Positions 4,337-36,600 of a stretch of DNA of 38,326 nt are shown here, in pieces. A program made the position numbers and the translations under genes. The stretch spans positions 1-38,326 of the forward strand of contig NZ_BLLI01000014.1 of the NCBI RefSeq assembly GCF_011170085.1. The letters are read 5' to 3'. Below the pieces are notes generated by a model. That model did no database searches. It saw only the letters and a program-made list of their open reading frames with translations, and was not told where the DNA came from. How positions within the stretch are numbered: the stretch's first letter is position 1; each line of letters starts with the position of its first letter. Origin of the DNA: Pseudolactococcus hodotermopsidis. Its GTDB lineage: Bacteria > Bacillota > Bacilli > Lactobacillales > Streptococcaceae.

Positions 4337-4509
4337 AAACTCAGATTTGCCCATTTTTACTAAAATTTCCTTAGTCGTCGTCATTCCTCCTCGACTTGCA
4401 CCAACAAGCCTTCGTTGGATTTCCTAGCCTAAGAAAATTTTATCTAAAAATGAACAAAAGCAAATCTTTTTGCGACGAGTAATCGCAGGAGCAGTTTTTA
4501 GAGATACCC
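4325..4509 (+). mobile_element. MITE-like element, copy 2 (185 bp)
   Basis: Bounded by GGGCATCTCTAAAAACT on the left and its inverse with one mismatch on the right (TACCC instead of TGCCC), and flanked by a TATA duplication (4321-4324 and 4510-4513). It shares the interior CCTTAGTCGTCGTC ... CCTAGCCTAAGAAAATTTT with the other copies but lacks the GCACCTGCGGTTACTCGGTGC hairpin on its left side. It sits across the purK stop and 34 bases before purB, so it lies inside the presumed pur operon. Confidence 0.88.
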
Positions 4510-10056: not shown

Positions 10057-10277
10057 GGGCATCTCTAAAAACTCAGATTCGCCCATTTTTGTTAGCTCAT
10101 AAAATCGCTAACAGAAAAAAGATGTGCACCTGCGGTTACTCGGTGCATGAAAAAATTGCTAAAATTTCCTTAGTCGTCGTCAATCCTCCTTGACTTGCGC
10201 TAGCAAGCCTTCGTCGGATTTCCTAGCCTAAGAAAATTTTATCTAAAAAAGAACAAAAGCAGTTTTTAGAGATGCCC
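10057..10277 (+). mobile_element. MITE-like element, copy 3 (221 bp)
   Basis: Perfect terminal repeats GGGCATCTCTAAAAACT and inverse, with an ATAA duplication on each side (10053-10056 and 10278-10281). It is the longest copy: relative to copy 1 it has an extra segment GTTAGCTCATAAAATCGCTAAC, itself an inverted repeat, near its left end. It also contains the hairpin GCACCTGCGGTTACTCGGTGC. Its right end lies 11 bases before the ribosome site of scrK, so any upstream scrK promoter now reads through it. Confidence 0.9.
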
Positions 10278-21938: not shown

Positions 21939-22059
21939 TTAAAAGGTTTATCTTAGCACCTTTCTCGCTCCTGCTTTTTGTTTGGGGCATTTTTTATACA
22001 AAAAATAAAGCTCACACTCTATTGAGGTAAATCTTATTTGATATGAAAATTATGTATTA

Positions 22060-22344
22060 TATACTCGCTTAAATATAAAAAAAGTTATAAAGCTTTTGAA
22101 CTATTTTTCGTCAATTTTAGTCAACGGCTAAACCACGTTGTTCATAGCTTTTACGTAAGCCAGGCGACAAGGCGAAGGTATACAGGTATACGGTGCGACT
22201 TATTGTTCAATGCCTAAGCGATAAATCGCTTAGGCACGCTACACATAGCTACTTATCTAAGCGCTAAAGCGCAAAGATAGTAGCCAAACGACGAAGTGGT
22301 GGATCTAGTCTAAAGCGTAATCTTTTTATAGTTAAATGAGTATA
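22060..22344. repeat. BOX-like structured repeat (285 bp)
   Basis: The unit begins TATACTC (22060-22066) and ends GAGTATA (22338-22344). Its first and last approximately 45 bases are imperfect inverted repeats. Inside are a perfect 11-bp hairpin (22211-22236, loop TAAA), a second hairpin (22248-22284, GCTAC/GTAGC and TATCT/AGATA around GCGC-TAAA-GCGC), and a doubled GTATAC at 22178-22191. Ends in TATACTC and the AAACCACGT motif recall pneumococcal BOX elements. No open frame of note is inside. Whether it is a true BOX relative needs other copies from the genome. Confidence 0.6.
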
Positions 22345-22552
22345 ATATAAGATTGAAATTTGTGAATAGTAACACCTTAAACTGTTATATTCACTTTATA
22401 AGCAAAAAAACAGATTTCAGTCAATTCTTCGTCAACCATTGAACCGTATATCTACACGTTTGCGATTGATTTTCTTGTCTGCTCTATCTCAAAATATTGC
22501 ATTTCATTTTTACACTTGAACGCGTATATTTTAGAAGATACTAGACTTTTTT

Positions 22553-22582
22553 CTGAAAATTCTATTTAAATTATGGTATAAT
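22553..22582 (+). promoter_or_regulatory. Promoter of tkt
   Basis: An extended -10, TGGTATAAT (22574-22582), with CTGAAA (22553-22558) 18 bases upstream as a weak -35. The leader to the tkt start is about 55 bases. Confidence 0.6.
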
Positions 22583-22644
22583 TGAGTAAATACAAAATTA
22601 TAAAAGCGACTATAATTTAGGTAACAAATGAAAGGGAATCAAAC

Positions 22645-24630
22645 ATGACTTTTGACAATACCGACCAATTGGCGGTTAATACAATTCGCACACTTTCTAT
22701 TGAGGCGATTCAAGCAGCAAATTCGGGTCATCCGGGTCTTCCTATGGGTGCTGCACCGATGGCTTACGTGCTTTGGAGCAAATTTCTCAATGTTAATCCA
22801 TTGACACACCGTAACTGGTCGAACCGTGATCGTTTCGTCTTATCTGCGGGGCATGGCTCGTCTATGCTTTATAGCTTGCTTCATTTGGCGGGCTATGACT
22901 TGTCAATTGATGATCTCAAAAATTTTCGTCAATGGGGAAGTAAAACGCCAGGTCATCCAGAAGTTGATTGGGTTGACGGTGTTGAGGCAACGACAGGACC
23001 GCTTGGTCAAGGCATTGCAAATGCTGTCGGTCTTGCTATGGCTGAGGCGCATTTAGCTGCGACTTACAACCGTCCTGGCTATGAAATCGTTGACCATTAT
23101 ACTTATGCGCTCAATGGAGATGGCGACTTAATGGAAGGCGTTTCGCAAGAGGCAGCATCACTTGCCGCACAGCTCAAATTAGGGAAACTTGTCCTTTTAT
23201 ATGATAGCAACGATATTTCACTTGACGGACCATTATCAAAATCGTTTCCAGACGACATCAAAATGCGTTTTGAATCTTACGGTTGGCAGCATATTTTGGT
23301 AAAAGATGGGAATGATTTGACAGAAATTGAATCAGCGATTAGTCGTGCCAAGGCAGAAACTGATAAGCCAACGATTATCGAAGTCAAGACTATCATTGGT
23401 TATGGTGCTGAAAAGCAAGGAACATCTGCGGTTCATGGTGCGCCACTTGGTGCCGATGGCATTCTTTATGCGAAAAAATCATATGGTTGGGAGTATCCAG
23501 ACTTTACTGTGCCAACCGAAGTTACTAAGCGGTTTGATGACACTTTGCGTGCGCGTGGCGAGCATCTTGAGCAAGTTTGGCGTGAGACTTTTGATGCTTA
23601 TGCTGAAGCTTATCCTGAACTTGCTAAGCAATATGCTGATGCTTTTAGTAATAAAACGCCTGAATTAGAGCTTGGTAAATACGAACTTGGTACAAGCGCC
23701 GCCAGTCGTGTTTCATCACAAGAAACAATTCAAAAATTATCAGCTCAAATGCCCAATCTTTGGGGGGGGTCTGCCGATTTGTCAGCCTCAAATAACACGA
23801 TGGTCAAATTAGAGAGTGATTTTGAAGTTGGCAATTATGCTGGGCGTAATATCTGGTTTGGTGTGCGTGAATTTGCTATGGCGGCTGCTATGAATGGGAT
23901 TGCCCTCCACGGTGGTACGCGCGTATATGGTGGCACATTCTTTGTTTTTTCAAATTATCTGCTCCCAGCTGTTCGTATGGCTGCCTTACAAGAGTTACCG
24001 ACAGTTTATGTCTTGACCCATGATTCGATTGCAGTTGGTGAGGATGGTCCGACCCATGAGCCAATTGAGCAATTAGCTAGCTTACGCTCAATGCCTAATT
24101 TGAATGTTATTCGTCCCGCTGATGGTAATGAAGTGGTTGCTGCTTGGCGTCGTGCTGTGACTGAAACGAAACGGCCAACTGCCTTGATACTCACACGTCA
24201 AAACTTGCGAGTGCTTAATCGAACAGCTGAATTAGCTGAAGAAGGTGTTAATCGCGGCGCTTATATCATTTACAAAGAAAAAGGAGTGCTTGACGGTATT
24301 ATTATCGCGACTGGTAGTGAGGTAAAACTTGCGCTTGATACCGCCGATGAGCTTGAAAAAATTGGTAAATCCGTTCGTGTTGTCTCAATGCCGGCGCAAA
24401 ATATTTTTGATGAGCAGTCTAGTGAATACAAGGAAGAAATTTTGCCTAGCAGTGTGACAAAACGTCTGGCAATTGAAGCTGGTACTAGCTTTGGTTGGGG
24501 CAAATATGTTGGACTTAACGGTCAAACACTTACAATTGATACGTGGGGTGCAAGTGGCCCTTGCGACCGTATTTTTGAAGAATATGGCTTTACGGTTGAG
24601 AATGCTGTTAAGCTGTATGAGAAGATGTGA
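22645..24630 (+). CDS. tkt: Transketolase
   Basis: Transketolase moves two-carbon units between sugar phosphates in the pentose phosphate pathway, using thiamine diphosphate and a divalent metal. The 661-residue protein has the N-terminal [20 protein letters not shown], the metal/thiamine motif [17 protein letters not shown] (from about residue 153), DSNDISLDG, and in the pyrimidine domain [18 protein letters not shown] and [23 protein letters not shown] 22645 follows AAAGGGAATC. The gene has its own promoter and a terminator, so it stands alone. Confidence 0.97.
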
Positions 24631-24647
24631 TGTGAACTTTAAAAAAA

Positions 24648-24679
24648 GTAAACTGCGACTATTTTTAGTTGCAGTTTTA
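24648..24679 (+). terminator. Terminator of tkt
   Basis: AAACTGCGACT (24650-24660) pairs with AGTTGCAGTTT (24666-24676) around ATTTT, followed by T residues. Confidence 0.7.
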
Positions 24680-24773
24680 TTGTTAGCTAAAATGTTCAGA
24701 TTACTAGCTTTTAATGAGTAATCGTCATGTATTATCTCATGCAACAGTCATTTTATAAATGATTGACTTGCTA

Positions 24774-25288
24774 TTACAAGAATCTTTGATAAAATCAGCA
24801 AAATCAAGTACAATAAGATAAACAACAAAATTAGAAAAGTAGTGATATGGCAACCAAAACTAAACAACTGACTTTATTTGGCTTTTTTGCCCTGACCGCC
24901 TCAATGGTGCTGGATGTTTACGAATACCCAACATTTGCAACCTCACAACTCAATCTTATCTTTTTCCTGATTGTCGGTGGCTTGCTTTGGTTTTTTCCCG
25001 CAGCGCTTTGTTCAGCTGAAATGGCAACGATTCCCGAGTGGGAAAAAGGCGGCGTTTTTACGTGGGTCAGCGAAACACTTGGCGAGGGTTTCGGGTTCAT
25101 GGCAATTTTTTTTCAATGGTTTCAGATAACTGTTGGTTTTGTGACCATGATTTATTTCATGATAAGCGCTCTATCAAACGTTTTATCGTGGTCAGCACTT
25201 GATAGCAATCCCATCCTCAAAACGATCGCTGTTCTTGTTATTTTTTGGCTCGTCACATTGAACAGCTCGGTGGGACTGGTTTTACCGA
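24774..25288 (+). repeat. Direct repeat, left copy: promoter and 5' part of the gadC-like gene
   Basis: These 515 bases recur at 26952-27467 with six substitutions and one single-base deletion. The repeat covers the promoter, leader and first 140 or so codons of the gadC-like gene. Similarity stops sharply at TTACAAG on the left and after ACCGA/ACTGA on the right. The two copies, in the same direction, flank merR, the quinone-reductase-like gene and marR. Confidence 0.95.
24786..24814 (+). promoter_or_regulatory. Promoter of the gadC-like fragment, probably driving merR
   Basis: TTGATA (24786-24791), 17-base spacer, TACAAT (24809-24814). It is identical to the promoter of the intact gene at 26964-26992. 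Confidence 0.7.
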
Positions 25289-25308
25289 ATTTTATCAAAG
25301 GAGCTTGA
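24847..25308 (+). pseudogene. 5' fragment of the gadC-like antiporter gene
   Basis: The first 138 codons match the intact gene downstream almost exactly (one amino-acid change, Leu to Ile, before the break). A missing C near 25260 (TTGAACAG against TTGACACAG) then shifts the frame, giving [15 protein letters not shown] and a TGA at 25306-25308. About four of twelve membrane helices would be made, so transport is not expected. The stop codon is 2 bases before merR, whose ribosome site AAAGGAG lies in the fragment's last codons. Transcription and translation of the fragment therefore lead into merR. Confidence 0.9.
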
Positions 25309-25310
25309 AA

Positions 25311-25751
25311 ATGACACAAACTTTAAAGGAATTCGCTGATTATCTTGGTGTGACAACGGACACAATTCGACATTACGAGAAAATCGGTCTGCTAACACCA
25401 GCTAGAAAGGCCAATAATTATCGTGCTTTTGGTGCGACTGAATTAGAGAAGATGAAATATATCGAGGTCATGAAAGCGGGTGCATTCTCTCTCAAAGAGA
25501 TTCAATTTTTTATGAATCTGCTCTATGGTAGCCAGTCTACAGGCGATTGTGTGCAAATATCGCAAAATATTTTGACGCAGAAAATCATAGAATTTGAAGA
25601 ACAAATTGCCATCTATCAGAAGATGATTGCGATGTGCCAAGCCTTTCTTCCAATGATTGCGACAGTTGGCGAGACTTCAAAAATGACTGATTTGACAGCA
25701 ACAGTTGATGAAATGTTTGAATTGATTCGGCTGAAACGTATCGGCGATTAA
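25311..25751 (+). CDS. MerR family transcriptional regulator
   Basis: A 146-residue MerR-type activator/repressor. The N-terminal winged helix-turn-helix reads TLKEFADYLGVTTDTIRHYE (residues 4-23) then KIGLLTPARKANNYRAFG, followed by a dimerising coiled coil (about residues 75-115). It has only two cysteines (about residues 82 and 110), not the usual metal-binding set, so the signal is unknown; small AdhR/NmlR-like members respond to aldehydes. ATG 25311 has AAAGGAG 7 bases upstream. It converges on the quinone-reductase-like gene and shares a terminator with it. It has no promoter of its own other than the duplicated gadC-like one. Confidence 0.88.
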   Translation: MTQTLKEFADYLGVTTDTIRHYEKIGLLTPARKANNYRAFGATELEKMKYIEVMKAGAFSLKEIQFFMNLLYGSQSTGDCVQISQNILTQKIIEFEEQIAIYQKMIAMCQAFLPMIATVGETSKMTDLTATVDEMFELIRLKRIGD

Positions 25752-25791
25752 GACAGGTTGATTATTTATCTTGCTATCATACTATGTTATA

Positions 25792-25821
25792 AAAACTGTG
25801 ACTAAATTTAGTCACAGTTTT
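25792..25821. terminator. Perfect palindromic bidirectional terminator
   Basis: AAAACTGTG, ACTAAATTTAGT and CACAGTTTT join into a perfect 30-base palindrome between two convergent genes. It includes the stop codon of the minus-strand gene (25812-25814). Confidence 0.85.
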
Positions 25822-26435
25822 CGAGCATATCGGCTAACTTTTGTCAAAAAATTCTGCCGTTTTTGTAACGTATTGACTTCTCGCCCCATATTGCCTAAAA
25901 TCATAATTTTCTTAGTTTTAACACCACAATGAGTTAAAACTGCATTTTTTAAACTGGCAATGCCGTAGGAATCGGGGACAGAAATCACGCCAGAAAAGAG
26001 ACGATACCAAAAGCTTGGCGCCATAGAAGTCGCAATAATGTCAGCCGTTTTACCAGTCAAAAGCTTTTTAAACTGCCGTCCGAGCATGAAATTTAGAAGA
26101 AAATGTCCCTTTTGATTGGCCGAATAAGCAAGACGAGGTGTGAAAACACGTTCAATCCAACCTGTCATAAGGCTTGGCATCGAACTCCACCAAATCGGAT
26201 AAATAAAGATAAAATGTTCCGCCCATTGAATCAAGGCTTGCGATTTTTCGATTGCCAAATCCTCTGGCATATGTTGCCGATAACCCAAACGCAAAACGGG
26301 GTCAAAGGTCATTTTGGCAAGCTCTAATGTTTCAATCTCGTGTTTATCAGTGTCTAAATTTTTGACAACTGCATCAAAAATGGCACTAGAAAAACTTTTC
26401 TCATCGGGATGACCATTAATGATTAGAATTTTCAT
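25812..26435 (-). CDS. NAD(P)H-dependent flavodoxin-like oxidoreductase (quinone reductase type)
   Basis: A 207-residue member of the Flavodoxin_2 family (MdaB/YwrO/NQO type), which reduces quinones and similar electrophiles with FMN or FAD. The N terminus MKILIINGHPDEKSFSSAI holds the phosphate-binding loop, and FIFIYPIWWSSMPSLMTGWI with RVFTPRLAYS is the second flavin contact. The start overlaps the marR stop by 4 bases, so the two are translated together. A MarR-type partner of this kind usually senses quinones or oxidants and represses the enzyme; that is inference here. Confidence 0.86.
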   Translation of the reverse strand: MKILIINGHPDEKSFSSAIFDAVVKNLDTDKHEIETLELAKMTFDPVLRLGYRQHMPEDLAIEKSQALIQWAEHFIFIYPIWWSSMPSLMTGWIERVFTPRLAYSANQKGHFLLNFMLGRQFKKLLTGKTADIIATSMAPSFWYRLFSGVISVPDSYGIASLKNAVLTHCGVKTKKIMILGNMGREVNTLQKRQNFLTKVSRYARKL

Positions 26436-26899
26436 TTATTTATTCCTTTTTTCACTTTGTTTTCAACTTGTGCGACACCTTGTGAGAGTTTTTCAAAAAA
26501 TGTGAGCAGTTGTGAGAGTTCGGCAGTTTCAAATGACTGGAAAAGGGTTTCAAGTGTCAGACGTTCAATTTCTCGCGTTCGTTTTTCGCATGCTAAAGCT
26601 TTTTCTGTCAATTCGATAAAAATTGCATTTTGTTTGCCACTTTTAAATCGAATATACTCTTTCTTTGCCAATGATTGTGCGACTTTCTTCACATTTTGGC
26701 GTGAAGAGCCCATTTTTTGGGCTAAAATGCTTAGATTATTTGGTTCATTAGTCGCTTGGAGCAAAGAAATCAGCATGTATTGTTTCATGGTGACGTTATC
26801 TTGCAACTGATTGCCAACCGTTTGTAATTTATTTTGCAAGATAAAAAGCCTTGTGACAATTTCTTGCATTTTAGGGTCAATTTTATTAGATTTCGACAT
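26432..26899 (-). CDS. MarR family transcriptional regulator
   Basis: A 155-residue winged helix repressor. The DNA-binding region reads YMLISLLQATNEPNNLSILA, KMGSSRQNVKKVAQSLAKK, then the wing YIRFKSGKQNAIFIELTEKA, with long helices at both ends for dimerisation (coiled-coil-like FEKLSQGVAQVENKVKKG at the C terminus). ATG 26899 has AGAGGA upstream on the minus strand. It is the first gene of a two-gene unit with the flavodoxin-like oxidoreductase and is divergent from the intact gadC-like gene. A palindrome over its own promoter suggests autoregulation. Confidence 0.87.
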   Translation of the reverse strand: MSKSNKIDPKMQEIVTRLFILQNKLQTVGNQLQDNVTMKQYMLISLLQATNEPNNLSILAQKMGSSRQNVKKVAQSLAKKEYIRFKSGKQNAIFIELTEKALACEKRTREIERLTLETLFQSFETAELSQLLTFFEKLSQGVAQVENKVKKGINK

Positions 26900-26913
26900 G
26901 TTTTCCTCTTAAA

Positions 26914-26957
26914 TAGTAACTAATTACTATTATACCGTAACTGCTTACCATTTACAA
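26914..26957 (-). promoter_or_regulatory. marR promoter and operator palindrome
   Basis: On the minus strand TTGTAA (26957-26952), 17 bases, TATAAT (26934-26929). TAGTAA-CTAA-TTACTA (26914-26929) is an inverted repeat over the transcript start region and is a likely MarR site. The -35 lies in the first bases of the right-hand direct repeat, back to back with the gadC-like promoter. Confidence 0.65.
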
Positions 26958-27467
26958 GAATCTTTGATAAAATCAGCAAAATCAAGTACAATAAGATAAA
27001 CAACAAAATTAGAAAAGTAGTGATATGGCAACCAAAACTAAACAACTGACTTTATTTGGCTTTTTCGCCCTGACCGCCTCAATGGTGCTGGATGTTTACG
27101 AATACCCAACATTTGCAACCTCACAACTCAATCTTATCTTTTTCCTGATTGTCGGTGGCTTGCTTTGGTTTTTTCCCGCAGCGCTTTGTTCAGCTGAAAT
27201 GGCAACGATTCCCGAGTGGGAAAAAGGCGGCGTTTTTACGTGGGTCAGCGAAACACTTGGCGAGGGTTTCGGGTTCATGGCAATTTTTTTTCAATGGTTT
27301 CAGATAACTGTTGGTTTTGTGACCATGATCTATTTCATGATAAGTGCTCTATCAAACGTTTTATCGTGGTCAGCACTTGATAGCAATCCCATCCTCAAAA
27401 CGCTCGCTGTTCTTGTTATTTTTTGGCTCGTCACATTGACACAGCTTGGTGGGACTGGTTTTACTGA
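26952..27467 (+). repeat. Direct repeat, right copy: 5' part of the intact gadC-like gene
   Basis: Partner of 24774-25288 (about 98.6% identical by eye, one single-base gap). Recombination between the two copies would remove 2.18 kb carrying merR, the oxidoreductase gene and marR, and leave one intact gadC-like gene. Confidence 0.95.
26964..26992 (+). promoter_or_regulatory. Promoter of the intact gadC-like gene
   Basis: TTGATA (26964-26969), 17-base spacer, TACAAT (26987-26992); leader of about 27 bases. Confidence 0.7.
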
Positions 27468-28533
27468 TAAATTGGTCAAGTTTACCTTTGCGCTCGGTAT
27501 TGTTTTGCCAGCAGTGATTTTGCTGGCACTTTGCGTGGCTTACGTCCTTGGTGGCAATCCCTTGCAATTTACTGGCGTTGGGGCTAGGGTGATACCCGAC
27601 TTTCGCCAAGCAGCGACCCTCGTCGTTTTTGTCTCATTTATCCTAAGCTACATGGGTGTTGAGGCCTCGGCGACTTACTCGAATGAACTCAAAAATGTTC
27701 AGCGCAACTATCCGATTGCCATGCTCATGCTAGTGATTTTCGCAATTGTCATCAATTCGATAGGCGGGCTGTCAGTCGGCGCAATTATCCCTGTGAAAGA
27801 CCTGTCCTTGAGCGGTGGTGTGCTACAAGCGTTTGAGAAGTATCTGGCGCATTTTGGCTTGGAGAGCCAAGTTTTGCTGAAAGTATTTTCAGTCCTAATC
27901 GCGCTAGGCATTTTGGGAGAAGTTACCTCATGGGTCGTAGGACCTGCGCGTGGTCTGTTTATGGCAGCACAAAAAGGGTTACTCCCCCCTATTTTCCGCA
28001 AGACAAATCAGGCTAATGTCCCAGTGCCGATTGTGCTTTTACAAGGCGGTATTGTCAGCATTTGGGTCATTGTTCTGACGCTTTTTGGTGGCGGTAATAA
28101 TCTGTCCTTCCAAGTTGCGCTATCATTGACAGCGACGATTTATGACATGATGTATTTGATATTTTTCATCGCTTATCTCGTTTTAGTGCATAAAATGCCA
28201 ACGCTCAAAGGCGATTATCAAGTTTTCGGCGGGAAGATTGGCAAAACGCTTATCGCAAGTTCGGGTATTATCTGCTCACTTGTCGTTTTGGGCATCTCAT
28301 TTGTCGTGCCAAGCGCCATTGCCAAAAATGAGGGGACGACTTATCAAGTGATGCTAGTGACGGGGTTTCTGTTGACAATGGCGCTGCCAGTCGCGATTTA
28401 TCAGCTTAACGATAAGACGAAACACAAGGTGATTCACAAACCTCTGCATCTGGTCGCTGATGAGGTAAATGTCTTTGTGCATCCCAAGGCGCGTGGCGAG
28501 CATCGGATTGTGGCGGATGAGGAGCGGAATTGA
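27025..28533 (+). CDS. GadC-like glutamate:GABA antiporter family permease
   Basis: A 502-residue membrane transporter of the APC superfamily with about twelve helices. The N-terminal part ([57 protein letters not shown]) closely follows lactococcal GadC, which exchanges glutamate for GABA in acid resistance. The C-terminal tail of about 40 charged residues fits the pH-gating plug of GadC. No gadB decarboxylase is next to it, so the true substrate could be another amino acid. The promoter and ATG are within the right copy of the direct repeat. No strong ribosome site is seen (GAAAAG at loose spacing). Confidence 0.85.
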   Translation: MATKTKQLTLFGFFALTASMVLDVYEYPTFATSQLNLIFFLIVGGLLWFFPAALCSAEMATIPEWEKGGVFTWVSETLGEGFGFMAIFFQWFQITVGFVTMIYFMISALSNVLSWSALDSNPILKTLAVLVIFWLVTLTQLGGTGFTDKLVKFTFALGIVLPAVILLALCVAYVLGGNPLQFTGVGARVIPDFRQAATLVVFVSFILSYMGVEASATYSNELKNVQRNYPIAMLMLVIFAIVINSIGGLSVGAIIPVKDLSLSGGVLQAFEKYLAHFGLESQVLLKVFSVLIALGILGEVTSWVVGPARGLFMAAQKGLLPPIFRKTNQANVPVPIVLLQGGIVSIWVIVLTLFGGGNNLSFQVALSLTATIYDMMYLIFFIAYLVLVHKMPTLKGDYQVFGGKIGKTLIASSGIICSLVVLGISFVVPSAIAKNEGTTYQVMLVTGFLLTMALPVAIYQLNDKTKHKVIHKPLHLVADEVNVFVHPKARGEHRIVADEERN

Positions 28534-28652
28534 GGCATATCTTTTTATATACTCGATTCGCTAAATAAGATATTGTAATATCGATATTTCTAATCTTCTG
28601 TTATTAAAAGATTAGAATAGTTTTCAATATCAGAGTTGATTAAACTGCTACC

Positions 28653-28681
28653 TTGCCAATCTCCCCATTTTCCACTATAAT
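28653..28681 (+). promoter_or_regulatory. Promoter upstream of fic
   Basis: TTGCCA (28653-28658), 17 bases, TATAAT (28676-28681). The 24 bases at 28667-28690 are identical to 29674-29697 in the queF promoter, including TTTTC and GAAAA arms around the -10. Confidence 0.65.
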
Positions 28682-28733
28682 AGAAAAGTAATAATACGTT
28701 ATTTTCAGCTAATTAATCGGTGTTGGGATTTAG

Positions 28734-28796
28734 GCGACTTATTGGGAAAATGATGTTTTTGAAAATCGCTTTGATAAAGCGCTATTAAGACGTTAG
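28734..28796 (+). other. Possible coding remnant before fic
   Basis: A 20-codon open stretch reads TYWENDVFENRFDKALLRR and ends at TAG 28794-28796, 11 bases before the fic ATG. It has no start codon in frame and its stop overlaps the fic ribosome site. It looks like the 3' end of a lost gene once coupled to fic, but is too short to assign. Confidence 0.3.
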
Positions 28797-28807
28797 GAGG
28801 AAAGTAA

Positions 28808-29545
28808 ATGACAATTAGGAAAAAGGAATTTTTAGCAATCGCTCAAAAAACGATGTGTCTCAATTCAGAATATGCTTTGGACGTTTTGATTCGGATTGCG
28901 CATCATTCTAGCGCAATTGAGGGAAATACTTTGTCGCTTAGTGATACGATAACGATTTTGATAGATGAGATGACACCTAGTCATTCAAAGTCATTGCGGG
29001 AATTGTACGAAGTCGCCAATCACAGAGAAGCATTTGCTGATTTGTTAGTACAAGTTGCAAGTCTGGAGAAGTTGACTGTTCAATTTGTTAAACAGATTCA
29101 AGCCGATTTGGTTGATCATATTCGAGAAGATAAGGGGCAGTTTAAAACGCAACAAAATGCTATTTTAGGGTCAATTGAGAGATTAGCAACACCTGCTGAA
29201 ACGCCTTTTTTAATGACACAATGGGTAGAAAATTATGATTGGCAACTTAACAATTTGCGAGATAGACATCTGATTGAAGCGATAGCGCAAAGTCATATTG
29301 AATTTGAGAAGATTCATCCTTTTTCAGACGGCAATGGTCGAACTGGAAGATTGTTGATTTCTTATGCAACACTTGTGACATTTGGTGTACCGATTGTGAT
29401 TGACAAAGAACAGCAGGCGCTCTATATTGAAATGATTCAAAATCGTGATGTGATGGCGCTTGCTGATATGATAGAGAAAAATGTTACTTTTGAGCTTGAA
29501 CGGCAGAAGATGTTTGTTTATCAGAGTTCGCTTGATGTGGAGTGA
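28808..29545 (+). CDS. Fic domain protein (class II, N-terminal inhibitory motif)
   Basis: Fic enzymes usually transfer AMP from ATP to a hydroxyl of a target protein. This 245-residue protein has the full catalytic motif HPFSDGNGRTGR (about residues 170-181), matching HxFx(D/E)GNGRxxR. It also has SSAIEGN (about residues 34-40), which fits the (S/T)xxxE(G/N) inhibitory helix placed before the Fic core. It is therefore self-inhibited (class II), needing no separate antitoxin. ATG 28808 has a strong TTAGGAGG site. The target is unknown. It stands alone between the gadC-like gene and the queuosine operon. Confidence 0.9.
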   Translation: MTIRKKEFLAIAQKTMCLNSEYALDVLIRIAHHSSAIEGNTLSLSDTITILIDEMTPSHSKSLRELYEVANHREAFADLLVQVASLEKLTVQFVKQIQADLVDHIREDKGQFKTQQNAILGSIERLATPAETPFLMTQWVENYDWQLNNLRDRHLIEAIAQSHIEFEKIHPFSDGNGRTGRLLISYATLVTFGVPIVIDKEQQALYIEMIQNRDVMALADMIEKNVTFELERQKMFVYQSSLDVE

Positions 29546-29659
29546 TAAAATTAACCAACTATAAAAATGAAAGTGTTAGAGAAATCTGGTGCTTTTTTCA
29601 TGAGAAGTCAAAAGCAACAAAAATAGAGATTCTAATCATAAACATTTAATTTAAAACTC

Positions 29660-29688
29660 TTGCACACCTAAAGATTTTCCACTATAAT
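29660..29688 (+). promoter_or_regulatory. Promoter of queF-queC-queT
   Basis: TTGCAC (29660-29665), 17 bases, TATAAT (29683-29688). Transcription would start near 29695, about 11 bases before the riboswitch. Confidence 0.7.
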
Positions 29689-29705
29689 AGAAAAGTATCA
29701 AAAAT

Positions 29706-29744
29706 AACGTGGTTCGTAACCATCCCACGAAAAAAAACTAGGAG
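29706..29744 (+). promoter_or_regulatory. PreQ1-I riboswitch
   Basis: P1 pairs CGTGG (29708-29712) with CCACG (29725-29729) around the 12-base loop TTCGTAACCATC. The A-rich tail AAAAAAAACTAGGAG (29730-29744) follows, as in the preQ1-I H-type pseudoknot. The tail includes the ribosome site AGGAG of queF, so preQ1 binding should block translation initiation rather than cause termination. The genes downstream are queuosine genes, which supports the call. Confidence 0.85.
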
Positions 29745-29750
29745 CTTATT

Positions 29751-30224
29751 ATGTCACACTTAACACAACTTGGTAGCAAAGGTACCGAGTATCCGACGGA
29801 TTATGCGCCGTCTGTGCTTGAAACCTTTGACAATCAGCACCCCGACAATGATTATTTTGTCAAATTTAATTGTCCAGAGTTTACCAGTCTTTGCCCGATT
29901 ACGGCACAGCCTGACTTTGCGACGATTTACATCTCGTATGTGCCAAATCTGAAAATGGTTGAGAGTAAGTCGCTGAAACTTTATTTGTTTTCTTTTAGAA
30001 ATCACGGTGATTTTCATGAGGATTGTATGAACAAAATCATGAAAGATTTGGTTGCGCTGATGCAGCCGAAATATCTTGAGGTTTGGGGCAAATTCACGCC
30101 GCGTGGTGGGATTTCGATTGATCCTTATGTCAACTATGGCGAGAAAAACACGCCGTGGGAGCAGGTGGCTTGGGAGCGCTTGACTCAGCATGATTTGTAT
30201 CCCGAAAAGGTGGCTAATCGATGA
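29751..30224 (+). CDS. queF: NADPH-dependent 7-cyano-7-deazaguanine reductase
   Basis: QueF reduces the nitrile of preQ0 to preQ1, the base later inserted into tRNA. The 157-residue unimodular protein shows [20 protein letters not shown] with the catalytic cysteine, the family motif [21 protein letters not shown] and the C-terminal [18 protein letters not shown] 29751 follows the AGGAG in the riboswitch tail. Its stop overlaps the queC start by 4 bases. Confidence 0.96.
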
Positions 30225-30886
30225 AAATGTCAACTTTTCCCCAAGCGCTCGTTGTTTTCTCGGGTGGTCAGGATTCGACAACCTGTCTTTTGCAGGCGAT
30301 TCATGACTATGGACGTGAGAATGTTCACGCCATCTCCTTTCACTATGGTCAGCGCCACAATATTGAGCTAGATAAAGCCAAATGGCTCGCCCAAGATTTA
30401 GGTGTCACGCATAAGCTGGTCAATATATCAGAATTTACGCAACTCACGTCAAATGCGCTGATGGATGAAAACGCAGAGATTTCCCAAGCCCGTGGTGCTG
30501 AGTTCCCAAATACTTTCGTTGCGGGGCGAAATGCCGTTTTCATCTTGCTTGCAAGCATTTACGCAGAAAGCCAAGGCATCAAAAAAATCATCCTTGGCGT
30601 TTGTGAGACCGATTATTCGGGCTATCCCGACTGTCGCGATGTGTTTATCAAGAGCATGAATGTGGCGGTCAATCTGGCGATGGCAAAGGATTTTCAGCTG
30701 ATAACGCCGCTCATGTATCTTGATAAGATACAGACTTGGCAAATGGCGGATGAGCTTGGTGCGCTTGACTATATCAAAAATCACACGCACACTTGTTATT
30801 TGGGCGTTGACGGCGGTTGTGGCGAGTGTCCTAGCTGTCAATTGCGCAACAATAGTTACGAGAACTATCTAGCTTTAAAAAATTAG
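30221..30886 (+). CDS. queC: 7-cyano-7-deazaguanine synthase
   Basis: QueC turns carboxydeazaguanine and ammonia into preQ0 with ATP. The 221 residues have the PP-loop [10 protein letters not shown] near the N terminus, [11 protein letters not shown], the core [14 protein letters not shown] and the zinc site [18 protein letters not shown]. Translation is coupled to queF. Its substrate comes from QueD and QueE, whose genes are not in this window. Confidence 0.96.
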
Positions 30887-30939
30887 AAAGGAATGAGCTA
30901 TTTCTGGCTCATTTCTAAGTTAGAATAGCTTGTTATAAA

Positions 30940-31434
30940 ATGAACAACAAAAATATCAAATTTCTAGCAACATCAGCGATTATCACAGCACTTTACGTCA
31001 CTTTGACCCTGGTTTTCGGTGCTTTTTCATTCGGAATTGTCAATTTTCGGATTGCCTCTATGCTGAATCATGTGATATTTATTAATAAAAAATATGCTTT
31101 TGCCATTATCCTAGGCTGTGGTATTGCCAACAGCACCTCGCCACTTGGTCTCATGGATGTTCTTGTTGGCGTGTCAATGAATGCGATTGCATTGGGCTTA
31201 ACGATTCTCATCACATCGAAAATGTCGTATTTGCCTGCCAAACTTGCCGTCAATACGCTAACGATTGCTGCCCTGATGTTCATGGTAGCCTTGGAGCTTG
31301 TCTACGCTTTCCACATGCCATTTCTTGCAACTTATGGCACGGTTGCCTTGGGACAATTTGTCTCTGTTGGCATTGGTGCTGTCCTTTATCAAGTCGTTTT
31401 TGGACGAACAAAGTTGGCTGAGAAATTAGCTTGA
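30940..31434 (+). CDS. queT: QueT, queuosine-precursor transporter S component
   Basis: A 164-residue membrane protein of the QueT family, the substrate-binding component of an ECF transporter that takes up a queuosine precursor. About five hydrophobic helices are visible (FLATSAIITALYVTLTLVF, YAFAIILGCGIANSTSPLG, MNAIALGLTILI, LTIAALMFMVALELVYAF, LGQFVSVGIGAVLYQVVF). It would need the shared EcfA/T module encoded elsewhere. The 53-base gap after queC holds a hairpin (AATGAGC/GCTCATT), so it is probably in the same transcript with possible fine control. Confidence 0.9.
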   Translation: MNNKNIKFLATSAIITALYVTLTLVFGAFSFGIVNFRIASMLNHVIFINKKYAFAIILGCGIANSTSPLGLMDVLVGVSMNAIALGLTILITSKMSYLPAKLAVNTLTIAALMFMVALELVYAFHMPFLATYGTVALGQFVSVGIGAVLYQVVFGRTKLAEKLA

Positions 31435-31443
31435 ATTAGAAAG

Positions 31444-31481
31444 AATACTCAGAATTTCAAGAAATTCTAAGTATTTTTTTA
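31444..31481 (+). terminator. Terminator of the queF-queC-queT operon
   Basis: AATACT-AGAATTTC pairs with GAAATTCT-AGTATT around AA, with a run of seven T. Confidence 0.88.
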
Positions 31482-31495
31482 TTGAGTCAAATGGC

Positions 31496-31545
31496 TTGTT
31501 TAAGCACCAAAATTAAGTTATAATTAAATGTTGGAAACGCTTACG
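31496..31545 (+). promoter_or_regulatory. Promoter with cre-like site for the amino-acid permease
   Basis: TTGTTT (31496-31501), 17 bases, TATAAT (31519-31524). TGGAAACGCTTACG (31532-31545), just after the -10, matches 12 of 14 positions of the lactococcal cre consensus WGWAARCGYTWWMA. At this place bound CcpA would block transcription, suggesting carbon catabolite repression. Confidence 0.6.
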
Positions 31546-31564
31546 ATATAAAAATAGGAGTAAT

Positions 31565-32926
31565 ATGAAAAAACAAGAAACACGCAAATTTGGTCTACTC
31601 ATGTCAATCGCCATGATTATCGGCATTGTCATCGGCTCAGGCATCTTTTTCAAGGCTGACGATATTTTAACGCAGACAAACGGCAACGTTCTCATGGGCT
31701 GTCTGGTCTTGTTAGTTGGCGCACTTGGCATCATTTTCGGTGGCATTACCATGGCGGAGTGGGCGAAAATTACTGACGATGCGGGCGGGCTGATTTCCTA
31801 TGCTGAAAAAGCCTTCGGCAAATTTTTTGCTTTTCTGCTCGGCTGGTTTCAAGCCATCGTCTATTTTCCCGCATTGACAGCGATTATCGCCTTTGTGGCG
31901 GCGAATTACACGATTTCGCTCTTTCCAAAACTAGCGCTCGGGCAAATAGGCATTTGGCTGTTGAGCCTTGTCTACTTGCTTGCAACCTATGCCCTCAACA
32001 TTTTTTCAAGTAAAATGTCGGAAATTTTTCAAACATCGGCGATGTTTATTAAGTTAGTGCCGTTATTGTTAATTGCCATTTGCGGTATAATTTTCGGCGA
32101 TCCACAAGCGATAACCTCGCATACCATTTCTTTACCTATCATCATGTCATCAACAGGTGCAATCGTTGCTGTTGCTTTTTCATATGACGGCTGGACAGTA
32201 GCGCCGTCAATTTGTCATGAAATCAAAAATGCCAAACGCAATCTGCCACTTGCTTTAATCATCAGTCCATTAGTTATCTTAGCTGTTTATGTCAGCTATT
32301 TTGTTGGCATTTCACTAATGATTGGCCCAGATAAAATCATGCAAATGGGTGATTTGGCATTTGCAGCAGCAGCGGAAAAATTATTTGGCACGTTTGGGCA
32401 GAAACTCATGCTTGTTGCTGTGATTATTTCTGTTTTAGGTACGGTAAATGGGCTGACCGTTGCGACAATTCGCGCACCCTATTTCCTAGCGCTCAGAAAA
32501 GAATTGCCACAAAGTGAAAAAATCGCCAAATTACATCCAAAATTTAATCTGTCAATTCCTTCCGTCATCATCAGTTTTATTGTTGTTTTGGCGTGGTTAG
32601 CCATTCACTTTTTGTCAATCAAAGTGCCTGTCATCAGCAAACTTCAAATTGACATTTCATCAATTCCAATTGTTATCATGTATGTTTTCTATGCTCTTTT
32701 ATATGTTGGCGTGATAATTCGCACGATGAAAGGCTTGATTCACAATAAAATTGTTGGTATTCTTTGTCCGATTCTGGCAATTTTCGGCGCTTTGATGATT
32801 TTATATGGCGGTTTGACCGCTTCAAATGCCATGATTTATATTGTCGTGTCACTTTTGATTTTAGCTAGTGGTGCTGGCTTGTATGCTCGATTAACTAAAA
32901 AGGATGACCAAAAGTCTTACTCTTAG
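31565..32926 (+). CDS. APC family amino-acid permease
   Basis: A 453-residue secondary transporter with about twelve membrane helices. The first helix has IGIVIGSGIFFKADDIL, matching the GSGIF substrate-backbone motif of the LAT/APC group. EWAKITDDAGGLISYAEKAFG and AFSYDGWTVAPSICHEIKNAKRNLPLAL are further marks of the family. The substrate cannot be told from sequence; related LAT proteins carry serine, threonine or branched-chain amino acids. ATG 31565 follows AGGAG. No good terminator is visible after it, so transcription may run on into the small-RNA locus. Confidence 0.87.
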   Translation: MKKQETRKFGLLMSIAMIIGIVIGSGIFFKADDILTQTNGNVLMGCLVLLVGALGIIFGGITMAEWAKITDDAGGLISYAEKAFGKFFAFLLGWFQAIVYFPALTAIIAFVAANYTISLFPKLALGQIGIWLLSLVYLLATYALNIFSSKMSEIFQTSAMFIKLVPLLLIAICGIIFGDPQAITSHTISLPIIMSSTGAIVAVAFSYDGWTVAPSICHEIKNAKRNLPLALIISPLVILAVYVSYFVGISLMIGPDKIMQMGDLAFAAAAEKLFGTFGQKLMLVAVIISVLGTVNGLTVATIRAPYFLALRKELPQSEKIAKLHPKFNLSIPSVIISFIVVLAWLAIHFLSIKVPVISKLQIDISSIPIVIMYVFYALLYVGVIIRTMKGLIHNKIVGILCPILAIFGALMILYGGLTASNAMIYIVVSLLILASGAGLYARLTKKDDQKSYS

Positions 32927-33034
32927 CGTGGAGATGAACTCTAAATTTAGCCTTGTCTTGAACCTTAACATTAGTAAAGCTGTTTCTTGAATTGGGTATT
33001 TGCAACATTCCCAAAAATAGTGTATAATAAACAC
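32927..33034. other. Gap between the permease and the small-RNA transcript
   Basis: Short AT-rich gap of about 100 bases with no frame worth calling. It holds the promoter of the small RNA at its right end. Confidence 0.5.
33000..33028 (+). promoter_or_regulatory. Strong promoter of a small RNA
   Basis: TTGCAA (33000-33005), a 17-base spacer, TATAAT (33023-33028). The next 165 bases have no translatable frame with a ribosome site and end in a strong terminator. Confidence 0.75.
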
Positions 33035-33199
33035 ATGCGATGAGTCGATTTGGAACGCAAGTTCCTCATTTACGCTACGGATAATCGGGGCATAGCCCGT
33101 CAAGGATTGATGGATTATTGCTTGCGAGTGTGAACCTTTCAAGCACATGAAAATGCCGTATTAAAATCTTGATGAGTTTTTCTCATCAAGGTTTTTTTT
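33035..33199 (+). ncRNA. Unassigned structured small RNA, about 165 nt
   Basis: The transcript predicted from a strong promoter and terminator has no matching frame. Several stems are visible: GGAAC-GCAA-GTTCC (33052-33065) with a GNRA loop, closed by ATGA/TCAT; GGGC-ATA-GCCC (33088-33098) nested in GATAATC/GATTATT; and GCTTG/CAAGC (33120-33144). The early GATGAG near 33039-33044 repeats the left arm of the terminator and could compete for its right arm. I do not recognise the family. A 6S-type regulator is possible in size and setting, but the long rod with a central bubble is not obvious. Confidence 0.6.
33168..33199 (+). terminator. Terminator of the small RNA
   Basis: CTTGATGAG-TTTTT-CTCATCAAG, nine perfect pairs, followed by G and a long T run. 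Confidence 0.92.
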
Positions 33200-33252
33200 A
33201 TTTAAAAGTCAAAAGTTTTGACACATTTATTTTTTAAGTAGCTCATGTTTTG

Positions 33253-33280
33253 TTGCCATGTTTTAAACATCTGTTATAAT
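33253..33280 (+). promoter_or_regulatory. Promoter of the Fst-type toxin RNA
   Basis: TTGCCA (33253-33258), 16 bases, TATAAT (33275-33280). The start near 33287 gives a leader in which CACCTC (33290-33295) pairs with GAGGTG (33309-33314), burying the ribosome site. Confidence 0.7.
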
Positions 33281-33320
33281 GTTTTTCGGCACCTCTTTGT
33301 TTAGGAGGGAGGTGTTAAGC

Positions 33321-33403
33321 ATGTTTAATTCATCACAGAAGTAGTAGCAAACGTCATCTCAGGCGTATTGCTTATCATCATTGACAAGATGTTGATAACC
33401 TAG
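33321..33403 (+). pseudogene. Frameshifted Fst-type small membrane toxin (type I toxin-antitoxin locus)
   Basis: ATG 33321 follows a very strong GGAGGGAGGTG site but stops after seven codons. One frame over, the same stretch reads VANVISGVLLIIIDKMLIT and ends at TAG 33401-33403. Adding one T to AATTC near 33328 would join them into a 27-residue peptide starting MFNFITE, with a single hydrophobic helix and charged tail as in Fst toxins. The setting also fits: a 5' hairpin hiding the ribosome site, an 11-bp hairpin (33391-33416) at the stop, and a terminator at 33433-33467 shared by the opposing RNA in known par loci. The antisense RNA promoter was not clearly found. Confidence 0.68.
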
Positions 33404-33432
33404 ACAGGTTGTCAACACACGCCGTTAGGTGC

Positions 33433-33467
33433 AAAAAAGAGCCGTGTATTGACGTACATGGCTCTTT
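33433..33467. terminator. Terminator of the Fst-type locus
   Basis: AAAGAGCC-TGTA pairs with TACA-GGCTCTTT around TTGACG, with A and T runs on the two sides, so it could serve both strands. Confidence 0.85.
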
Positions 33468-33531
33468 GTGTCTAACTCATCACAGATTTCCGATAGTTAT
33501 CACATATCATAACCAAATCTTTAAAAAAGAG

Positions 33532-33619: not shown

Positions 33620-36600
33620 ATGAAACATGAAACAAGTATAAACAGGAGAGGAAAGACTTATCTTCAAACGTGGCAATCAGTTAAAACATGGTTATATGCT
33701 GCTTCAATCTTGCTTTTAGTTTTCAGTAGCAGTGGCAGTGCTTTAACTGTTTTGGCAGATGAGTTGACATCAACTGTACCGCAAACTCAGTCAGTCAATC
33801 CAGAAGCGACCTTACCTGTCTCTTCTGAGGATGAAGCAACTTTAACGCCAGAGGAGTCAGTGCCGCAAGAACAGCTAGAAACAACATCAGATAAGTTGGA
33901 TGAGATAGCCACTCCTCTACCAGAAAATCAACCTGTCATTCATGATGCTCCTATTGATGATAGTGGTATTCTTTCTGTTAGATCGGAGCCAAATGTTGTG
34001 ACGAATGAAAGCTCAACTACTGTGCTTGAGATTGATTATTCTGCAAATCTTGGAGATTTACTCACAATTTCTTTGCCTGCGGGAGCAGATATGCAGGGAG
34101 AGTTTGAGGATTTGGGTGAAAACGGAGGATCTGTCGAAGAACCAATAACAGATGGTGAGACTGGCAAAATTACTGGTTACAAAATTCGTTTTTGGGATAG
34201 CAAAAGTATTAAGTTTTATATGACTTTGTCTTTTGCGGATGTCAACAATCTTCAAGCAACTTTAGATGATATTGTGAATGGAACAGGTCTTAAAGCAGTC
34301 AAACCTGGTAACTTTGAAACCACTTTTTTAGCCGTAAAACTTGATGGTACAAGCTATAAGACAAGTTGCGTGACTAATGTAGAGGCTGGCGTGTATATCG
34401 CTGGTAACGATTGGAAGTTATCAGGGATTTCAAAGTCTTATATGGGAAATAAAGATTATACGTTTTCTGTTTCAGGCTTTACTACTGAAGGTTCAGCGAA
34501 TGGTAAGAATGGACCGCTAATATGGGAGGGGGATAAAACTACTTTTAAGCTAGATATTCCAGCAGGTTTTGAGTTAAATGTTGATAAAAGTCCAGGTTGG
34601 ACACAACCAGCTGGTGTTGGAACACCAATCTATCGTTTAAACGCTAAAGATAGTCCTAGTTTTGTAGGGCAATTTACTAGTCCAATCGGAGAGTATTCTA
34701 GTCAAGCGAAGACGTCAACTATTACAGGTTATTTTGGTTACTCAACCGACCCAGTAGAATTACCTATGACTCAACCATTTAAGATTACAATTGTTGAGCC
34801 AGACTATACTGCTAAACCCAATGTTTCGAACTCGGATAGTACGGTAACAGTAGCAAATCACTCTAACGTATTTCGTGACGAAAAGACTAACTATGCCTTT
34901 AGCAGTACGTTTGGGGTGCCAACTACGCTTCCAAATTTGTCAAATGTTAATCAGACTTTGGTAGCACCACCTGATGGTTCTACTATTAGCGCTTTTACGT
35001 TGATATTTAACCCTGAAAGCAATGAAAAAAGTCAAGTTCGGACAAAGATTACCTATTCAGATGGAAAAATTGACATATTTGAAAATGAAATGTCTGGCGA
35101 TAACAATTCTCAAAAGTTTGAAGCAACTTCTCCCATAACAATTGTGAAGATAGAAAATATTTGGGATAATCTGGAGACGGGTTCTACGATTAAAATGATG
35201 GTAGAGGCTGAATCTTTAGAGATTTTTTCAGATAATAAGGTTATAGAGGATAATGATCAAAGAGATGTTGTAGTAAACTATAACTGGGGATATAAAGGGA
35301 GCGATAAACTTGGTTCTATTGAGACTAAGAGTAAGGTCACTTATCGGACTAAATTATTTAATTATGAGTTGATATTAGAAAAACCAAAAGAGTCTACGGC
35401 GCAATTTGGTGATGGTAAAACATACAATTTTGGACTCTCTGTGCCAGCGACTGGTAATGATACAACAGTAAAAAATGTAATCGACCCTATTGTTTACTAT
35501 TTACTTCCTAAAGGAACACAGTATCTGGGGGTTGACTATGGGTCTGTTTCAAAACCTGAGTTTTCAACTTATCAAATCGAAACTGGACAGACAGTTGTCA
35601 AATTAGACTGGACTGGTACTGGAACACTTGTCACGACAGAACTTCTTAGTGGCATTAAGATAGCGTATGGGACACTTGAATACGGAAAAACTTTGAAAAC
35701 GCAAATGGCGGTTTATTTGTCGACGAAAAATGACTCAGACTTAAATCTGTCAATTTCTTCATGGGGTGGTGAGGGAATTATAAAAACACCCCTTGGATCT
35801 GAAATAGCTAGTCAAGTGACTCAAAAAGAGGCTAAAACAGTCTTTTTAGGGGCATCTGAGATAACAATTAACTCTACTTTAGACCTAAAAAATGGTTTGA
35901 TGATAGAAAGTAACACTGGAACAATTGGGACCAAAGCTCTTAATGATGTTATTAAAGGGGGAGAACATCACCTAATAGTTGCTATGGTCAATACAAAGAC
36001 AAATTCAGTGATGACTAAGATGAGGGGAATAGTCAATTTGCCTGACAGTGCAGACGGCTTACGTCTGGAGTTGAATGGGGCAGCTGTTGAAATTGTTGAT
36101 GAGAATAACAAAGTTTCAAGCGATGTTCGTGTTCTTTATTCGACCAAGACGCAGGAAGTAACAGATGATTTGAGTTTGACAGGTTACGTGTCGGCGGAGG
36201 ATGTAAAGAGTTGGTCTGACATTCGTTCATTTATTGTAGTTGCTGATGATATGCCAGCTGATACGATATATTATGTGCGTATGCTAGTAACTGCACCAAA
36301 TTTTAAGGAGGAAGTGTGGCAGGAAGTGACGATTGACTTAACTACAGTCGCTGATACGCTACCTCAACATAGCTCTGTCATAGATGAATTTGTTGATGCT
36401 AGTACGCCCAATGAAGAGAAAACTATTACTAAAACAATTCGTTATGTTGCTGTTGATGAAAATGGTAAAGAAGAAGAATTAACTAAAAGCTACATTGATT
36501 CGGTAGTTTTCAAAAAAATATTTGATGCCACAACAGGTAAAATAACATATGCTCCTGAGTCAGCACCACTTGGTTTTCAAGAGTTACCTGAGATTAAAGG

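Follow-up and report, generated by a model that had tools for sequence, protein, structure and literature searches.

The window analysed here is the whole of contig C14 (NZ_BLLI01000014.1; 38,326 nucleotides) of the Pseudolactococcus hodotermopsidis draft genome (2,297,451 bases in 138 contigs; G000 in our numbering), and it carries the head of a gadC-like, acid-resistance-type glutamate/gamma-aminobutyric acid (GABA) antiporter gene twice: once as the start of the intact gene (repeat R2) and once, farther upstream, as a shortened copy (repeat R1) joined to the leader of a gene for a MerR-family regulator. We read this layout as promoter capture, an already known type of rearrangement to which E. 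coli Cit+ offers the nearest system. The order in the window is tkt–R1–merR–oxr–marR–gadC (R2), with the following features at the locus:

24774–25288, + strand: R1, shortened copy of the gadC head with a promoter-like site (98.6% identity to R2)
24786–24814, + strand: copied gadC promoter-like site upstream of merR, TTGATA-17-TACAAT (10 of 12, consensus match only)
24847–25308, + strand: gadC' reading frame of 153 amino acids, its stop two bases before the merR ATG (open reading frame list and translation)
25289–25310, + strand: new joint, where the end of R1 meets the merR leader with the likely ribosome-binding site AAAGGAG (sequence)
25311–25751, + strand: merR, MerR-family regulator (PF13411, 2.5e-15)
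25812–26435, − strand: oxr, flavodoxin-fold NAD(P)H oxidoreductase; its place beside tkt probably predates the repeat (PF02525, 9e-34; 78% identical to an orthologue adjoining tkt in the genome G002)
26432–26899, − strand: marR, MarR-type regulator; its place beside oxr probably predates the repeat (weak Pfam match; 62% identical to the G002 orthologue)
26952–27467, + strand: R2, head of the intact gadC and probably the parental copy (alignment and comparison with G002)
27025–28533, + strand: intact gadC-like glutamate/GABA antiporter gene, 502 amino acids (TIGR00910, 3.2e-200)

Aligned over 516 columns, R1 and R2 are 98.6% identical, differing by six substitutions (at 24888, 25152, 25167, 25225, 25268, and 25286) and by one base that is missing from R1 after 25261. 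The match includes perfect runs of 114 and 263 nt and is not due to chance. The original prediction, of near-identical repeats 2178 bases apart that differ by six substitutions and one gap, is thus confirmed by alignment, the distance being that between the starts of R1 and R2, and its statement that the 5' part of gadC and its promoter are present in two copies is likewise borne out, in that the TTGATA-17-TACAAT site is present and identical in both. Each repeat holds the 73 bp upstream of gadC with this site and the first 147 to 148 of the 502 gadC codons: R2 starts 73 bp before the ATG and ends within codon 148, and R1 begins at the same point. When 24700–25300 was searched against its own assembly (E ≤ 0.001), matches were found at R1 and R2 only. 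As the full-length protein scores 666.1 bits against a TIGR00910 cut-off of 673.5, “gadC-like” is the right strength for its name.

R1 is the shortened partner, with one base missing, and the intact frame is that of R2. The gadC' frame of R1 covers positions 8–145 only of the 511 in the GadC model, and without the one-base loss it would continue into merR. A shortened head gene and a promoter known by its consensus match stand, across a joint, ahead of an intact gene, which is an arrangement expected of promoter capture; what is repeated is 515 bp, not the whole unit as in a tandem duplication. R1 would thereby give merR the predicted gadC promoter and a nearly coupled translation start. The putative MarR boxes found ahead of the true gadC would not come with this promoter, and merR would be read behind a shortened gadC frame ending two bases before its own start codon; activity of the captured promoter, and with it any change in merR expression, is what the arrangement predicts. 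No string longer than 8 nt spanning the gadC'/merR joint (25288/25289) recurs on the + strand within the window.

Three structures were observed in and beside R1. Two of its substitutions strengthen a terminator-like hairpin (25267–25288) just ahead of the merR leader, which in isolation folds at −8.6 kcal/mol in R1 against −3.4 in R2, while its 71-nt surroundings fold differently (−12.4 in R1, −16.0 in R2). The two ends of R1 (24774–24809 and 25275–25310) form an imperfect inverted repeat of 26/36 nt with a 12-nt perfect core, and 0 of 400 mononucleotide shuffles were as good in the best 24 nt (a post hoc comparison). Upstream of R1, the inverted repeat GATTACT...AGTAATC (24699–24723) is a possible regulator box to the left of the copied head.

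Which copy came first can be read, in part, from the sequence upstream of marR, where two further features lie:

26929–26957, − strand: predicted marR promoter, TTGTAA-17-TATAAT, with a −35 box that coincides with the opening six bases of R2
26916–26948, no strand assigned: a pair of inverted-repeat boxes (GTAACTAATTAC, GTAACTGCTTAC) that lie outside the repeat and may be MarR operators (similar boxes lie upstream of marR in G002)

G002, a genome of the same genus, has TTGCAA-17-TATTGT at the place of the marR promoter, and its DNA upstream of marR matches that of the window around the start codon, at two boxes with the pattern GTAAYTNNTTAC, at the −10 and −35 elements, and in their 17-base spacing. 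The similarity runs slightly past the boundary of R2 (TTACAAG in the window, TTGCAAG in G002). Because the repeat starts with the predicted marR −35 box, which is conserved in G002, the marR–gadC arrangement at R2 is probably older than that at R1, and some native marR DNA seems to have become part of the repeat, so that R1 takes it to a place where no marR follows. The marR product itself has a weak MarR match in Pfam (20.5 bits against a cut-off of 24.6) and sub-cut-off similarity to MprA (31.8 bits against 157).

Gene order points the same way for the genes between the repeats. In G002, tkt is followed by oxr (−), marR (−), and a permease gene, in the same order and orientation as in the window, with protein identities of 89% (transketolase), 78% (oxr), 62% (marR), and 75% (permease). 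The G002 genome has no gadC match and the stretch after its tkt has no merR. Relative to G002, the window shows two additions, namely R1 with merR between tkt and oxr, and gadC–fic–queF–queC–queT between marR and the permease gene. Because G002, without gadC, has the order tkt–oxr–marR–permease, oxr–marR is probably older than the repeat rather than a cassette brought in between its copies. Elsewhere in the genus, the permease gene directly follows tkt, without oxr–marR, in G004, G007, G009, and G010; its orthologue lies approximately 5, 4, and 1.4 kb from tkt in G001, G005, and G006; the stretch read after tkt has no permease gene in G003 and G011; and in G008 a contig end closes the region downstream of tkt. 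Relatives of oxr at ≤41% identity occur in seven other genomes of the genus, and a marR orthologue in 2 of 196 genomes of the family (our own and G002). No second close copy of merR, oxr, or marR is present in the assembly, where the next match to merR is 28% identical. A second transketolase-like gene, 68% identical and with one in-frame TAA, was observed on contig C24 of the same assembly (G000:C24:7815-9800), and a similar one with one TGA in G009.

These comparisons bear on one of the two histories offered by the original prediction, in which a circle with the 5' part of gadC integrated through a single crossover; at this locus, the circle would have held the gadC head with merR–oxr–marR and entered a gadC that adjoined tkt. 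The geometry of the repeats alone fits such an event. However, DNA foreign to the locus is expected between the repeats, whereas oxr–marR adjoins tkt in G002, which has no gadC match, and merR alone is missing there; with the predicted marR −35 box inside the repeat, the gadC fragment on the circle would start exactly at that box by accident; and the DNA between the repeats holds merR, oxr, and marR only, with no integrase, replication, or transfer gene. The gene order of G002 and the position of the −35 box thus disfavour the circle, which we regard as very improbable.

The gadC gene looks like a newcomer. The original prediction looked to relatives for the single-copy arrangement, a comparison that could be made in part: none of the 11 congeneric genomes has an orthologue of this gadC (seven gave permeases of 21–26% identity and four gave none; G011 is 70% complete), and a search for another strain of the species gave none. 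Across the family, a gadC match at 1e-100 occurs in 8 of 196 genomes, our own included, and the nearest relative, 70–71% identical, belongs to another genus of the family (its contig is titled Lactobacillales MAG, for metagenome-assembled genome). The unduplicated part of gadC has a G+C content of 0.476 against 0.397 for the window, a weak sign of arrival because tkt also stands at 0.446. A horizontal acquisition of gadC would accommodate these patterns. As to a plasmid or viral origin, there is no near plasmid match for 22000–33500; distant matches in 17 plasmid records (67–72% identity) lie, where annotated, in gadC or amino acid permease genes, and the best merR matches in plasmid records reach 37%. 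In viral contigs, a 39-nt gadC string had no exact counterpart and merR had no relative; plasmid and viral origins were rejected. We also observed that the genome has gadC and no glutamate decarboxylase match; such a match occurs in 5 of the 12 genomes (G002, G003, G004, G009, and G010), of which G002, G003, and G004 have no gadC match.

As a history of the locus we favour end-to-middle joining that was followed or preceded by loss on the left side, an explanation to which we give an even chance. A horizontally acquired gadC would have come to lie before marR, beside the older oxr–marR pair. Two gadC-bearing copies of the region, on sister chromosomes or as resident DNA and incoming DNA of a near relative, would then have been joined end to middle, such that gadC was cut near codon 148 (147 or 148) and fused to the merR leader, whether by unequal exchange or through incoming DNA. 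Before or after this joint, the stretch between the region downstream of tkt and the marR −35 box would have been lost on the left. The same outcome may be reached in two variants: an in-lineage tandem duplication followed by loss, or the joining of a resident tkt–gadC to an incoming merR–oxr–marR–gadC. We infer both the order of these events and their route. Tandem duplication, which the original prediction had named beside the circle, is incomplete on its own because only the gadC head is doubled, and with merR, oxr, and marR single, a second loss or another route is needed.

Several points weigh against this history. It requires two events, for which no intermediate is known. G002 is the single genome behind the old gene order, and gadC and merR may alternatively have been lost from it. 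The absence of merR from the G002 stretch after tkt counts here as well, as does its lack of a close relative in the samples, with a match in 1 of 394 other genomes of the order (E ≤ 1e-22, 33% identity), so that an ancestor with tkt–merR–oxr is assumed, not seen. The DNA shared with G002 beyond the R2 boundary is short, and is thus circumstantial evidence for R2 being first. Six of the seven differences fall within the last 137 bp (P ∼0.004 for either end and 0.028 for any window, both post hoc), a clustering that simple divergence does not predict. Of the six substitutions, five fall on third codon positions (P 0.018 under random position; with expectations set by hand at 0.47 and 0.6, P becomes 0.084 and 0.233), a bias that leans weakly to two living alleles over a long-dead in-lineage copy and proves neither. 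At 25225, the nearest relative (L015) has Leu like R2, five more distant ones have Ile like R1, and L021 has Ser; for the synonymous differences, the outgroups are too distant to give a polarity.

In the main rival, merR was already situated between tkt and oxr when a polymerase switched template during replication or repair, copied 515 bp from the marR–gadC junction, and then resumed on the merR leader. Such a templated copy would explain the layout equally well, with a single event sufficing and R2 as the natural template. The clustering of differences toward one end and the imperfect inverted repeat (26/36 nt) that bounds R1 also speak for it. Both of these signs were noticed only post hoc, though, and 515 bp is long for a templated insertion. 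We consider this route possible but rather unlikely.

A different single event would be the entry of R1 and merR as a 1-kb unit between tkt and oxr. The feature that suggests it is the following:

24767–24774, + strand: left copy, beside R1, of the 8-bp direct repeat CTTGCTAT, whose other copy is at 25770–25777 (chance approximately 3%, suggestive only)

The two copies of this repeat bracket the unit, and G002 lacks both R1 and merR at the corresponding place. In addition, a 21-mer near the left end of the repeat has seven matches in the assembly—R1 and R2 exactly, one with two mismatches, and four with three—against none for its reversed control. Yet an 8-bp match is expected in approximately 3% of tries, the five additional 21-mer matches are imperfect and fall in an AT-rich motif, and a scan of ten reading frames, tkt through queT, showed no transposase. 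A mobile end at the start of the repeat was rejected, as was insertion by an insertion sequence or transposon, the 8-bp repeat being compatible with chance; entry as a 1-kb unit, however mediated, we hold to be improbable. Nor do we think it likely, at a still lower level of belief, that the layout is an artefact of a 138-contig draft that mixes two strains or misjoins a repeat. The assembly is a draft, and usual short reads are shorter than the 263-nt perfect run; against this, the seven differences mark two distinct copies, and the sequence spanning the gadC'/merR joint is unique beyond 8 nt on the + strand of the window, so that a k-mer collision inside the contig does not account for the layout.

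Parallels to the layout exist in several systems. In E. coli Cit+, a tandem duplication is described as yielding a shortened rnk–citG fusion frame and placing a promoter upstream of citT, and without selection the duplication is reported to collapse readily by homologous recombination (PMC5918244). As there, a novel joint sets a shortened head gene and promoter ahead of another gene; unlike there, only the head is still doubled, each intervening gene occurs once, divergence between the copies has reached 1.4%, and the promoter effect is predicted. In insertion with long target duplication, the bracketed DNA is reported to be the insert and often comprises restriction-modification genes (PMC1643837, PMC4978471, on Nobusato et al., 2000). 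The window resembles this in having long direct repeats of chromosomal DNA on either side of genes, but oxr and marR probably predate the repeat, and in place of a single-copy empty site G002 has oxr–marR and no gadC. Homology-facilitated illegitimate recombination has one homologous side and a non-homologous joint on the other (PMC3240628, PMC5361080), and in the Vibrio model older genes remain beside incoming ones (PMC5361080). The joint at 25288/25289, across which no string longer than 8 nt recurs in the window, may be of the second sort; no donor or second strain was found to define the anchor. S. pneumoniae is a related bacterium, the nearest gadC relative here being titled Lactobacillales MAG. 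Its transformation-made tandem duplications are reported to include one of 3,276 bp without flanking repeats (PMC3784515); unlike those duplications, the rest of the duplicated unit is absent from the window. Homology-facilitated illegitimate recombination and transformation-made duplication are credible routes to the layout. A literature search found no paper that treats gadC with merR and duplication in Lactococcus, although the layout may have been described in print; papers listed on related subjects concern GABA and lactococcal topics (PMC10492284), and the literature on promoter capture with tandem duplication junctions in bacteria includes PMC5526668.

Direct repeats were also surveyed in the window and 67 stretches from five genomes (1,309,304 bases), which listed 72 pairs, 18 of them checked for genes; 40 of the other 54 fall within L131, L141, and L142. 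The layout was present in 2 of the 18, the window itself and a G002 stretch chosen because it was already known, so that in this partial sample it is not common among the pairs checked. In the G002 stretch (L085:726-2853, contig C9), a head fragment of gadB is followed by a gene of 180 codons and then by the complete gadB. The fragment is 164 bp long and 77% identical, its stop overlaps the ATG of the 180-amino-acid gene, and the product of that gene scores 129.8 bits with NF006753 (cut-off 137). The 4.3-kb loci read were those of G002, G003, G004, and G010: in G004 the fragment is absent from beside gadB and the 180-amino-acid gene, and in G003 and G010 gadB stands without that gene. To judge from its sequence, gadB' before the 180-amino-acid gene is a second case of the gadC'–merR layout, older-looking by its divergence. 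Two further candidates were rejected: L099 was taken for an interspersed repeat unlike a gene head, and L122 for a pair of whole tandem paralogues whose proteins are 57.5% identical. Elsewhere in the window we observed direct repeats at 36419–38216 (418–699 bp aligned, 78–85%), near the contig end, and a 106-bp repeat (4357–4462 and 10156–10261; 92% identical, 5.8 kb apart) that no open reading frame of ≥40 amino acids overlaps by half.

Downstream of gadC lie fic, queF, queC, and queT, followed by the permease gene (31565–32926). The gene fic is preceded by a 24-nt exact copy of the queF promoter region (28667–28690 and 29674–29697), for which the largest number of matches in 100 shuffles was 0. 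The queF gene carries a preQ1 riboswitch (29703–29747), the sole match to an RNA family. We also observed gadC near queuosine genes in two settings: with fic and then queF–queC–queT downstream in the window (27025–31434), and with queG directly upstream in L005 (4818–7512).

Taken together, gadC'–merR, the G002 gadB' head, and the shorter 24-nt copy before fic could be cases of a wider pattern in the genus, whereby incoming or silent genes repeatedly gain expression behind the copied head of a neighbouring stress gene, comprising promoter, ribosome-binding site, and first codons, with its frame ending at the start codon. We rate both the pattern and the assignment of these three cases to it as quite doubtful; if true, new genes would repeatedly be wired in this manner without a transposon.

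The original prediction that exchange between the repeats would remove merR–oxr–marR and keep a complete gadC is right by geometry: recombination of R1 with R2 would delete 2178 bp with the three genes and the boxes, and gadC would retain its promoter. Instability of the locus is plausible on its sequence. The seven differences, or 1.4% divergence, suggest that the duplicated state has lasted, and if the deletion is frequent, cells that lose merR, oxr, and marR may be selected against.

The locus would thus represent a natural and apparently long-standing case of promoter capture, a kind of event known from laboratory evolution, with an order of events that is partly readable from a sister genome and with a repeat that offers an easy way to measure the rate at which such scars collapse. 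If merR is truly under the control of the gadC promoter, one rearrangement would have linked a transporter with a regulator.

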